This document shows positions 26,009 to 29,479 of a stretch of DNA of 32,184 nt, piece by piece; positions within the stretch are counted from its first letter, which is position 1; each line of letters begins with the position of its first letter. A program made the position numbers and the translations under genes. The notes under the pieces are model-generated. The model was not told the DNA's origin, did no database searches, and was given only the letters and a program-made list of their open reading frames with translations. This DNA comes from Verrucomicrobiota bacterium. Lineage in GTDB: Bacteria > Verrucomicrobiota > Verrucomicrobiia > JAWXBN01. The stretch is from NCBI GenBank assembly GCA_034440155.1, contig JAWXBN010000007.1:1-32184 (forward strand), read 5' to 3'.

Positions 26009-27061
26009 TTAGGGGCCGTTTTCGAGGATCTCGCGAAGGGTTTTCCCCCCGTCAGGTTTAATGATAAAAGTGTTATGATGATTTTCACGGATAAGGAAGG
26101 GGGTGCGCCAGATCCGGGTACCCGATTCATCGGTGAGTTCACCGAGAATATAGTAGGAGCCGGGGCTTAACTCGATGTTTTTAAAAACCGCCACGCCCTT
26201 TTGATCTGTCGTCATGGATTTCATCGCAGTGGCCCTGTAGATGGATAATATCCGGGGTAGGTAAGGCTCGGTGGCATTATCGAGGAAAGCTTGGATTTCA
26301 TCACGTTCGATTTGCATGCGGGCTTGTTTTGCCATGAGAGGCTCTTTTTGATTTTCGACGACGGGCGCCTCGACTTTGAGTTTAGCTAGCTCTGATTTCT
26401 TTTTATCATCGATGACGCGGCCCTTGATCATGGCTTTATCCATGCGTTTATGCCATTCCTTCTGGTAATTTACCCACTCCTGGAAAACCTCATCGGACCA
26501 TTGTCTTTCGGCCACCGCGTTGATATTCGTCCCTACATTGTAGAGGGACAGGCGGTAGGCACTCGAGTAGGCATCGACGGATGGGAGTTTCGGTTCTTTA
26601 AAATTCGTTTGTAATGTCGCGGCCTTTTCCTGGAATTTTTTCAAATACTCATCTCTAGTTGTTTCATACTCCTGCTCTAGCTCCGCACTGGCATTATTCC
26701 AGACTTCCTTGGCTTGGTCTTCAAATTTCTCACCAGTGTGGACAAGATTATTTTCAAAATCAGTTTTTTGGGATTCGAGGTCCGCGAGGGTTTCGGAAAT
26801 ATCTTTGAGTTGCTGGTTGATTTTTACCAGTTGGTCGCGTTTCGGTTTTAAGGAGGCGGCATATTCAGCCCTGATTTCTTCAATGACTTGGATATTACCT
26901 AAGGCTAACGAGACCGCGATGGGCGGGACGGGATTGGTAAATTTCTCCGCGCGGATGGTTACTTTCGTTTCCTGTGCGCCGCGGTAAACCATTACGACGG
27001 TACCTAAGATCACCAGCAGCAGGATGATACTGGTAATCGTCGTTTTTTTCATCTGCTTCAT
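26009..27061 (-). CDS. Membrane-anchored coiled-coil hypothetical protein with C-terminal beta domain
   Basis: Not recognised. The 350-residue protein has an N-terminal membrane helix (about 7-26). Long charged helical regions follow with coiled-coil character (about 65-150 and 210-265). A C-terminal beta-sandwich-like part (about 285-340) reads GVAVFKNIELSPGSYYILG and resembles carboxypeptidase-regulatory-like domains. Most of the protein should lie outside the cytoplasm. AAGGA precedes the ATG by a suitable distance. It starts 15 bp after the chorismate-mutase-like gene and is last in the scpA-scpB operon. No function is claimed. Confidence 0.75.
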   Translation of the reverse strand: MKQMKKTTITSIILLLVILGTVVMVYRGAQETKVTIRAEKFTNPVPPIAVSLALGNIQVIEEIRAEYAASLKPKRDQLVKINQQLKDISETLADLESQKTDFENNLVHTGEKFEDQAKEVWNNASAELEQEYETTRDEYLKKFQEKAATLQTNFKEPKLPSVDAYSSAYRLSLYNVGTNINAVAERQWSDEVFQEWVNYQKEWHKRMDKAMIKGRVIDDKKKSELAKLKVEAPVVENQKEPLMAKQARMQIERDEIQAFLDNATEPYLPRILSIYRATAMKSMTTDQKGVAVFKNIELSPGSYYILGELTDESGTRIWRTPFLIRENHHNTFIIKPDGGKTLREILENGP

Positions 27062-27076
27062 CTTCTATTATTCCTT

Positions 27077-27910
27077 TCAAATCGGGTAGGAACCGATTAT
27101 TTTTACCGCATTACAGCCTGATGCAAATTGCTCCAAGGCTTTAGCCATCTTCGGTTCATCGGCGTGCCCGTCAAGATCGATAACAAAATGATATTTGAAT
27201 CCCGCACGCCAGGAGGGACGGGACTCGATTTTCATGAGGTTCACCCCGGCTTTAGCCAGGACTCCGAGGCTCAGAGCCAAGGCGCCGGGTTTATCCGGTA
27301 ATGAAAAAAGGATGGTTGTACGGTCGATACCCGTCGGTGGGGGGCACTTGCGGCCGATGACAAAAAAACGGGTGGGCTCTTGCTTCGTTTTTTTCTTTTT
27401 TCCGTCTTCGAGCACGATTTGTGCACAGATGCGCAACGGGAAATCGATAAAAAAATCAAACACATCGAGCAGCGTGCTGTCGCCTTGGATCTCGACAGGC
27501 ACCACACCGTAGTCGGCCTTTTTGTCACCCACAGTTTTAAAAATGGAACGCACGTCCTTCTGGAAAGTGTAACGGAGGCTTTTGCCAAATTTGCTTTTTG
27601 CCGCATTGGCGGAGATGCTCGACTCCGGTCCGAGGGCGGCGATCACGATGGGTTTTTCCAGCGAGATGGCGCTCGACATGATCTCCCGGTAAATCGCCTT
27701 GAGCGAATCATTTGGGAGCGGCCCTGGATTCATCCCGGTCAAGCGTCGTAAAAGGGCTTGTTCGCGTTCCGGCGCGTAAATATCCTGGCCGGAAGCGTGT
27801 TTGATTTTACCGACTTCCAGCACCAGGTTCACACGTTCGTTGAGCAGCGAGAGCAATTTGCTGTCGATCGCGTCGATTTGAGTACGGACATTTTTCAGGT
27901 CAAATGCCAT
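27077..27910 (-). CDS. Chorismate mutase-ACT protein with shrunken prephenate dehydratase domain (PheA-like)
   Basis: The 277-residue protein has an AroQ-type chorismate mutase domain (1-85; R9, R26, K37, R49 and E50 fit the active site) and a C-terminal ACT domain (about 200-277) with the Phe-binding motifs PGAL (208-211) and ESRP (229-232). Full P-proteins are about 360 residues. Here the prephenate dehydratase part (about 88-185) keeps IAALGPESSISANAA and the catalytic TRF (180-182). About 80 residues of the second subdomain are missing, and the Asn of the PVEN motif is Ile. The mutase may be active, but dehydratase activity is doubtful. It may be a Phe-regulated chorismate mutase, or a paralog of a full PheA elsewhere. 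It lies 5 bp after scpB. Confidence 0.85.
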   Translation of the reverse strand: MAFDLKNVRTQIDAIDSKLLSLLNERVNLVLEVGKIKHASGQDIYAPEREQALLRRLTGMNPGPLPNDSLKAIYREIMSSAISLEKPIVIAALGPESSISANAAKSKFGKSLRYTFQKDVRSIFKTVGDKKADYGVVPVEIQGDSTLLDVFDFFIDFPLRICAQIVLEDGKKKKTKQEPTRFFVIGRKCPPPTGIDRTTILFSLPDKPGALALSLGVLAKAGVNLMKIESRPSWRAGFKYHFVIDLDGHADEPKMAKALEQFASGCNAVKIIGSYPI

Positions 27911-27915
27911 AGGGA

Positions 27916-28734
27916 TTAAGCCTTCGGTTTGGTGGTCTGATCAGATTCTTCCTCGCCGCCGGGAATCGTATCGAGGTCCTCATCTGCCGCAATTTGCGCG
28001 AATTCTTTGACGGGAGTAGAGGGTTCGGTTTCCGGGGAGTCTTCCCCGGCAGAAGCGATTGACTCCTCGGGATGAGTTTCCTCGGCAGCGGCGGCAGCTT
28101 CACCCGCTAAGGGGAGTTGCTGTTCACTATCTGTGGGCGGACTTTCCGGTGGAATCTCCGCTGTTTTAAGTTTGAGCGCGCGTAATTCAGCAGCATTGGG
28201 CATTTCATCGAGGTTTTTGAGCCCGAAATGCTCGAGGAAAGCCTGTGTGGTCTCGTAAAGCATCGGCCGACCGGGTAACTCTGCGCGTCCGGCGATTTTG
28301 ATCATGCCCCGCTCCATCAAAGTCTGGACCATGGCATCGACTTGCACGCCACGGACGGCCTCGATATCGGCGCGGGTAATGGGCTGGCGGTAGGCGATGA
28401 TCGATAGGGTCTCTAAGGCTGATTGGCTGAGGCGCTGAGGGCGGTACTGGTCGAAAAGCTGTTTGATCCAGGCACCGAATTGTGGACGGGAGGCAAATTG
28501 GTAGGTGTCCCCGATCTCCTGGAGGAAAAAGGAACGCTGAGAGTCTGCCTCATAGTCTGCCCTGAGATTTAGCAGGGCGGCTTTAATGTCATCGAGGCTC
28601 CATTCCTTGTGTGTTTCGGTATCGGCCGATGGCTCGTATTCAGCCGCGTCTTTGAGGATGGATTTGAGTTCCTTCACGGAAAGCGGTTTGCCATTAGCGA
28701 AAAGGACGGATTCCAGAATGTATTTGAGTTCCAT
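27916..28734 (-). CDS. scpB: Segregation and condensation protein B
   Basis: ScpB dimers join ScpA and SMC in the condensin complex that helps organise and separate chromosomes. The winged-helix family motifs are visible: ELKYILESVLFANGKPLSVKEL, then QRLSQSALETLSIIAYRQPI, TRADIEAVRGV and LPGRPMLYETT. The last 80 residues are an acidic, low-complexity tail (Glu/Pro/Ser/Thr) that is probably disordered and longer than usual. The ATG at 28734 is preferred (MELKYILESVLF), 7 bp after scpA. An upstream in-frame ATG at 28767 overlaps scpA. The smc gene is not in the window. Confidence 0.93.
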   Translation of the reverse strand: MELKYILESVLFANGKPLSVKELKSILKDAAEYEPSADTETHKEWSLDDIKAALLNLRADYEADSQRSFFLQEIGDTYQFASRPQFGAWIKQLFDQYRPQRLSQSALETLSIIAYRQPITRADIEAVRGVQVDAMVQTLMERGMIKIAGRAELPGRPMLYETTQAFLEHFGLKNLDEMPNAAELRALKLKTAEIPPESPPTDSEQQLPLAGEAAAAAEETHPEESIASAGEDSPETEPSTPVKEFAQIAADEDLDTIPGGEEESDQTTKPKA

Positions 28735-28741
28735 GTGTTTT

Positions 28742-29479
28742 TTATAATTCGTATTTGGTGATTTCAATGTCCCCGAATGGATCGGGTTGTGCAGCGAGGA
28801 TTTGTTTCAAACGGATCAACTCCAGCAGGGCTAGGAATGTCACCACGATTTCACTGCGGGAACGGGCATTAATAAATAGCTCGGTGAAGAGGATTTTTGT
28901 GTGTGTCTGGATTGTTGTCAGGATCAGGTCGATTTTGTCCGAGACAGTGAATCGCTCATCATAAATCTCACGCAGGTCATCATCGATATTGAGTTTCTTG
29001 AGGATTTTATTAAAGGCATTAAGCAGGTCAAAAATCCCGACGTCCGAAAGGGGGCGGGAGGAGTCGCTCTCTTCGAAATCAGGTTTTTCCGGTGCCCGGA
29101 CAAAAATATTCTCCTGTAAATACTCCCGATTCATCAGGTCGAGGGCCACATCCTTGAATTTCTTGTATTCAACCAGCCGTTTGATGAGATCCCAGCGCGG
29201 GTCGATGTCCTCCTCTTCCTGCTCTTCCATAATGACCTGTTGGTCCTCGGGCAGGAGGGTCTTGCTCTTGATATACATCAGGGTCGCGGCCATCACGAGG
29301 AATTCCCCAGCGATCTCGAGGTCGAGCATCTGCATGAGCTTGAGGTATTCCAGATACTGACGGGTAATGTGTTCGATAGGAATATCGTTAATATTGAGTT
29401 CGTCGCGCTTGATCAGATACAGGAGCAGATCTAGCGGACCCTCAAATACTGGCAATTTAACTTTTAATTCCTCGGTCAT
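28742..29479 (-). CDS. scpA: Segregation and condensation protein A
   Basis: ScpA is the kleisin that bridges the SMC heads. The N-terminal region VKLPVFEGPLDLLLYLIKRD, then IDIPIEHIT-like NDIPIEHITRQYLEYL, and the stretch AATLMYIKSKTLLP are diagnostic. The C-terminal winged helix ends SEIVVTFLALLELIRLKQI. The 245 residues are normal for the family. The gene is first in a minus-strand operon with scpB, the chorismate-mutase-like gene and the coiled-coil membrane gene. No upstream promoter was identified with confidence. Confidence 0.94.
   Translation of the reverse strand: MTEELKVKLPVFEGPLDLLLYLIKRDELNINDIPIEHITRQYLEYLKLMQMLDLEIAGEFLVMAATLMYIKSKTLLPEDQQVIMEEQEEEDIDPRWDLIKRLVEYKKFKDVALDLMNREYLQENIFVRAPEKPDFEESDSSRPLSDVGIFDLLNAFNKILKKLNIDDDLREIYDERFTVSDKIDLILTTIQTHTKILFTELFINARSRSEIVVTFLALLELIRLKQILAAQPDPFGDIEITKYEL

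Follow-up and report, generated by a model that had tools for sequence, protein, structure and literature searches.

A probable chorismate mutase derived from a P-protein by loss of the second prephenate dehydratase lobe, a short form that recurs among Verrucomicrobiota

The window analysed here, by which we mean the whole 32,184-nucleotide stretch of DNA from a Verrucomicrobiota bacterium, carries on its minus strand a gene (27077..27910) for a protein of 277 aa in which Pfam recognizes an AroQ-type chorismate mutase (CM) domain, the first lobe of a prephenate dehydratase (PDT1) and an ACT domain, in that order. The open reading frame is intact, running from the ATG at 27910 to the stop codon at 27077-27079. 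Directly upstream is scpB (27916..28767, minus strand; PF04079, E 1.6e-53), the stop codon of which is separated by 5 bases from this ATG, and scpB is in turn overlapped by scpA (28742..29479, minus strand; PF02616, E 1.2e-36). On the other side, 15 bases downstream, lies a minus-strand gene of 350 aa (26009-27061) that has no clear Pfam family; in some relatives a distant homologue of it directly follows the CM gene.

The CM domain (residues 1-86; 27653..27910, minus strand) gives a complete CM_2 match over residues 8-86 (PF01817, E 1.4e-24) and has all of Arg9, Arg26, Lys37, Arg49 and Glu50, the first four of which we take to correspond to Arg11, Arg28, Lys39 and Arg51 of E. coli. The dehydratase part is represented by PDT1 (residues 87-167; 27410..27652, minus strand), where the PDT profile is matched over residues 90-167 (E 3.2e-11), that is, at positions 1-78 of the 181 of PF00800 only, and where the PVEN motif at residues 138-141 reads PVEI, with Ile141 in place of Asn. 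Alignment with full-length homologues places a 12-residue Lys-rich linker of low pLDDT, EDGKKKKTKQEP (27374..27409, minus strand), where the second PDT lobe of about 80 residues is missing. Beyond the linker, the return strand TRFFVIG (residues 180-186; 27353..27373, minus strand), recognized in the structural model and the motif table, retains TRF at 180-182, Thr included. The ACT domain (residues 198-276; 27083..27319, minus strand) is complete by Pfam over residues 198-262 (PF01842, E 7.2e-11), aligns with the L-Phe-inhibited prephenate dehydratase 2qmx_A over residues 188-276, and has intact GAL (209-211) and ESRP (229-232) motifs that, judged from sequence alone, make up a predicted Phe-binding site. 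Full-length homologues at the scpA-scpB locus have about 356 aa, or 79 residues more than the window protein. An earlier note on this DNA had described complete CM and ACT domains around a dehydratase reduced to its first subdomain and TRF, lacking about 80 residues and with Ile for the Asn of PVEN, and the Pfam matches, motifs and model agree with it on each of these points.

Measured against established family profiles, the window protein exceeds the cut-off of the CM_P2 profile TIGR01807 (89.2 vs 69.55) and does not reach those for prephenate dehydratase NF008865 (106.9 bits vs 219) or for the P-protein family NF007910 (92 bits vs 577). It has the three-helix fold and active-site residues of an AroQ enzyme, as seen in the model and by Foldseek, together with two of the attributes of a P-protein, namely a full-length PF01817 domain with its catalytic residues and an ACT domain with GAL and ESRP; a two-lobe PDT with PVEN and TRF is absent.

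An AlphaFold2 model of the window protein, built on an alignment of 35 homologues, is a well-packed, single-lobe structure (mean pLDDT 89.1, pTM 0.82) with CM helices at residues 5-40, 47-60 and 67-85 and with PDT1 as a complete alpha/beta lobe, the last strand of which (180-186) returns past the gap and closes the sheet. Strand 160-167 leads directly to this strand with nothing of the second lobe between them, whereas in a full-length homologue from Prosthecobacter (L080), modelled likewise, the second lobe lies between strands 158-167 and 254-262 and contributes at least 8 secondary-structure elements there. Solved prephenate dehydratases, L-Phe-inhibited 2qmx among them, are the best Foldseek matches of the window model, and AroQ chorismate mutases match its first domain with a TM-score to target of about 0.9 or more. 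The second lobe is inserted between two strands of the first, so that its excision is structurally cheap, and the domain that remains after the deletion is, as modelled, a closed one. The capability for dehydratase chemistry is structurally gone, and the window protein cannot be a PDT.

The genome to which the window belongs is a 2.76 Mb draft, 97% complete, in 132 contigs. The window gene is its sole CM_2 match, and searches of this draft with PF01817 and PF07736 found no further CM and no AroH, respectively. TyrA is present. As the only CM found, the window gene must serve both the Phe and the Tyr branches, unless another CM lies in the missing 3%. The earlier note had proposed looking for a full-length pheA or an arogenate route elsewhere in the genome, and there is a second, complete PDT-ACT gene on another contig (G000:C62, 5517-6059), in which the ACT motif reads YSRP and TRF reads TKF.

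Genes scpA and scpB adjoin both full and short forms of the fusion on contigs named Verrucomicrobiota, Lentisphaerae and Omnitrophota. Short forms (CM-PDT1-ACT) lie mostly at this locus, the site of the full P-protein elsewhere, with copies in family f67 and in Candidatus Xiphinematobacter sitting away from it. Since full and short forms share this neighbourhood, most deletions happened in place, and both the origin from a P-protein and the recurrence of the short form beside scpAB in relatives, the one proposed and the other to be looked for according to the earlier note, are borne out. Two loci at scpAB also have a stand-alone PDT-ACT gene in tandem, one with the short gene (L069, 5971-8180 of DAOUQC010000004.1) and one with the full-length form (L103, 6004-9010).

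We examined recurrence in 286 genomes of the class, plus family f67 from another class of the phylum. About a dozen families carry the short form (f1, to which the window belongs, f4, f14, f18, f26, f27, f29, f30, f41, f49 and f67), and it is present in the finished single-contig genomes G016 and G025. Two PDT loci occur in 36 of the 286 class genomes; 25 of the 36, that of the window included, combine the short form with a complete PDT, and 9 combine a full fusion with a second PDT. Another complete PDT is found in 28 of 29 short-form genomes, and the exception (G053) is only 75% complete. When corrected for phylogeny, the co-occurrence of short form and second PDT amounts to three independent pairs for and none against, a number too small for significance (p = 0.25). 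In f67 the other PDT takes one of two forms, a full P-protein in G504 and a PDT-ACT behind an apparent DAHP synthase in G454 and G521. The latter genes (L249 at G454:C22 and L248 at G521:C127; 655-697 aa), with a C-terminal PDT-ACT and the DAHP-synthase-like motif IDCSHGNS in the N-terminal part, appear to be DAHPS-PDT-ACT fusions in genomes that also hold a short CM-PDT1-ACT. One of the finished genomes is that of Candidatus Xiphinematobacter (G016, 915,884 bp; PMC4607532), a nutritional endosymbiont with a presumed role in providing aromatic amino acids; its short form is its only CM_2 match and has ASQS for ESRP, a degenerate site that would make sense if feedback is not wanted there. Several nearly complete genomes of f9 and of part of f26 have no PDT match at all, and these organisms probably either require Phe or rely on a different dehydratase. 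Two apparent cases were set aside: L133, a full-length gene cut by a contig end, was dropped from the short forms, and the supposed split PDT of G229 (L059/L148) is a stand-alone PDT-ACT gene broken by a frameshift, due to sequencing error or to decay into a pseudogene.

A tree of 33 short and 56 full proteins, calculated from the columns of CM, PDT1 and ACT with those of the second lobe removed, needs six switches between the full and the short state, and the strongly supported branches alone force six. A single origin is rejected when all 30 short forms in the tree for the class are constrained to one clade (delta lnL 236, p-AU 3.6e-65). The changes are read as losses because regain of a homologous 80-residue lobe is implausible, so that the second lobe is taken to have been lost independently at least six times, with copy-to-copy recombination as a possible complication. 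The excision junctions are nearly alike each time (profile positions of about 165-178 and 246-257), at the borders of the lobe. The window sequence forms a long branch with uncertain nearest kin, and its grouping with the short forms of f4 has support of only 80/14.

Around the short form, relatives present what look like earlier and later stages of the same process. Six full-length fusions of f27, in genomes with a second PDT, have PIEH for PIEN and ARF for TRF, and another genome of this family, G170, carries the short form. The heavily degraded PDT motifs of L177 (G110) and L178 (G151), each in a genome with another PDT, make these genes candidates for early stages of the decay seen in short forms. 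The stand-alone PDT partners nearly all fall in one supported clade (97/97), apart from the fused PDTs; the partner in G174 falls outside it, and therefore more than one PDT source took over. At the eroded end of the series, mostly at the scpAB locus, are proteins of 164-170 aa that consist of CM and a PDT1 remnant without ACT (f13, f16), CM alone with 94-95 aa (f2, f10), and proteins of 273-325 aa (L215-L220 of f7 and f20) with a clear CM and a remainder that is unrecognisable save mostly for a GSYP-like end, possibly through extreme divergence of the PDT1-ACT shell. The genes L207-L214 and L221-L223 at scpAB are of the first two kinds, CM with a PDT1 remnant (164-170 aa) or stand-alone CM (about 95 aa). 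Extant stages thus comprise the full fusion, the full fusion with dead motifs and a second PDT, the single-lobe form, CM with a remnant, and CM alone, and events would have followed this order, from full through dead motifs and short form to further erosion.

Selection on the short form was gauged by dN/dS (NG86) in close pairs, for some of which dS is near saturation; the window family, a single genome, gives no pair. Values are mostly 0.02-0.25 for CM, PDT1 and ACT alike, and 0.25-0.36 in all three domains of a more distant pair (L007/L004). PDT1 and ACT are therefore under purifying selection that is about as strong as that on CM in most close pairs. The individual motifs have fared differently. 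The four CM residues Arg9, Arg26, Lys37 and Arg49 never vary, in either the short (30/30) or the full proteins (55/55); the PVEN Asn survives in 0/30 short vs 48/55 full forms; the Thr of TRF is gone in nearly all short forms, the window copy being one that retains TRF; and the Glu of ESRP is kept in 11/30 short forms (lost in 19/30) vs 51/55 full forms. The shell is thus constrained, and by its motifs the canonical Phe site appears to persist only in some short forms, the window copy included. The stand-alone PDTs of short-form genomes have lost the ESRP Glu in 23 of the 25 cases read, that of the window's own genome among them, whereas those coexisting with a full-length fusion in f27 retain ESRP. 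In this set (L001, 1489-2325, and partners) the Glu is mostly replaced by Val, Ile or Tyr, and the Arg of TRF is often Asn, His, Gln or Lys.

The explanation that we consider probable is that the window protein is a chorismate mutase of P-protein descent, shaped by excision of a lobe once a stand-alone PDT had taken over, and that here it is probably still regulated by Phe. The ancestor would have been a bifunctional P-protein (CM-PDT-ACT), the dehydratase step of which passed to a stand-alone PDT-ACT gene; the freed dehydratase of the fusion could then lose its catalytic Asn and afterwards the whole second lobe in frame. Prephenate made by the CM of the window would feed two enzymes, the separate PDT on the way to Phe and TyrA on the way to Tyr, and the leftover PDT1 would tie CM to the ACT domain. 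L-Phe bound at the ACT dimer may partly restrain CM by way of PDT1, and in the window copy the GAL/ESRP site would probably be responsible. In the P-protein of E. coli, Phe lowers CM activity by about 55% and PDT activity by 85% (PMC10520331); only partial inhibition would fit here, because a cell with its sole CM fully inhibited would run out of Tyr. For the window protein we thus propose CM activity, Phe binding and passage of the signal through PDT1. The Phe-regulated CM suggested in the earlier note is plausible for this copy, in which ESRP is intact, and does not extend to all short forms: on their motifs, Phe control is no general property of the short form, because most have lost the ESRP Glu and some related families have lost ACT altogether. 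More tentatively, and with less than even confidence, we suggest that excision of the second lobe is a repeatable path, open to selection, from bifunctional P-proteins to a conserved class of single-lobe, Phe-sensing CMs, with the brake moved from dehydratase to mutase and PDT1 kept as the transmitter from ACT to CM.

The widespread loss of the ESRP Glu among short forms also suits another reading, in which the protein is a plain CM with an inert shell, PDT1 and ACT serving merely to stabilise or dimerise it without sensing Phe, as a way-station to a stand-alone CM. The erosion series at scpAB, which ends in CM with a remnant and in CM alone, points the same way, as does the short form of Candidatus Xiphinematobacter, kept as the only CM_2 match despite ASQS. 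We regard this as unlikely for the window copy, where GAL and ESRP are intact; in most close pairs of short forms, PDT1 and ACT are also selected about as strongly as CM, a constraint for which a passive tail would have no need. A further proposal, which refines the derivation from a P-protein with retained Phe control and is compatible with it, is a division of regulatory labour, with Phe control moved to the CM step and the stand-alone PDT freed of feedback. The contrast between stand-alone PDTs of short-form genomes and those of f27 in their ESRP Glu speaks for it; it is nonetheless doubtful, since many short forms have lost that Glu too, so that neither ACT is canonical in those genomes, and Phe binding may rest on more than this Glu alone.

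That the short gene reflects an assembly error or a recent deletion in this one genome would accord with the window family being a single genome in the sample, with no sister for the exact junction. It is nevertheless very improbable, and as a lone error it is rejected, given the intact frame, the change of PVEN to PVEI and the presence of the short architecture in about a dozen families, finished genomes included. Most relatives are full-length at the locus, yet the deletion recurs, and the stable in-frame deletion envisaged in the earlier note is upheld by the intact frame, this recurrence and purifying selection; conservation of the short architecture across families under such selection likewise excludes chance. 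Just as hard to credit is a single lobe that still has dehydratase activity, whether by itself or in a dimer. The TRF of the window copy would be in keeping with it, but there is no two-lobe active-site cleft, and with the PVEN Asn gone from every short form and the TRF Thr from nearly all, residual dehydratase activity is rejected on motif and lobe loss.

PheA-type fusions are usually treated as stable, and the Verrucomicrobiota undo this one many times by a single structural step. With the resulting forms as a natural series, one can ask by what route allosteric control acts on the CM of a P-protein, through which dehydratase half the signal travels, and how piecewise loss becomes possible under redundancy. 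They also carry a warning for annotation: short-form genes exceed the Pfam cut-off for PDT yet cannot be dehydratases. In the open-access literature, the only kind searched, we found neither a conserved CM-single-lobe-ACT protein nor its repeated origin by lobe excision; the individual parts are known. With the P-protein PheA (NF007910), full-length homologues of which in Verrucomicrobiota and neighbouring phyla share the scpA-scpB locus, the window protein has CM, PDT1, ACT and domain order in common, and it differs in having neither the second PDT lobe nor the PVEN Asn. Monofunctional PDT-ACT proteins (PDB 2qmx, 2qmw, 3mwb, 4lub) have the same first lobe, ACT fold and GAL/ESRP motifs, to which the window protein adds an N-terminal CM while lacking the second lobe. 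The CM domain is shared with AroQ chorismate mutases and AroA(G)-CM fusions (PDB 2d8d, 5gmu, 5go2, 3nvt), with 32-34% identity and a TM-score to target of about 0.9 or more for 2d8d, 5gmu and 5go2, although these proteins have no PDT lobe or ACT domain. The closest parallels in the fate of a fusion are the inactive AroQ that precedes TyrA in Nostoc/Anabaena and the enteric lineage in which the pheA domain of aroQ-pheA has turned into a pseudogene (PMC1173090), for in these, as in the short form, one partner decays and the other stays; unlike them, the short form has arisen by clean excision of a lobe, at least six times, and has been conserved under selection.
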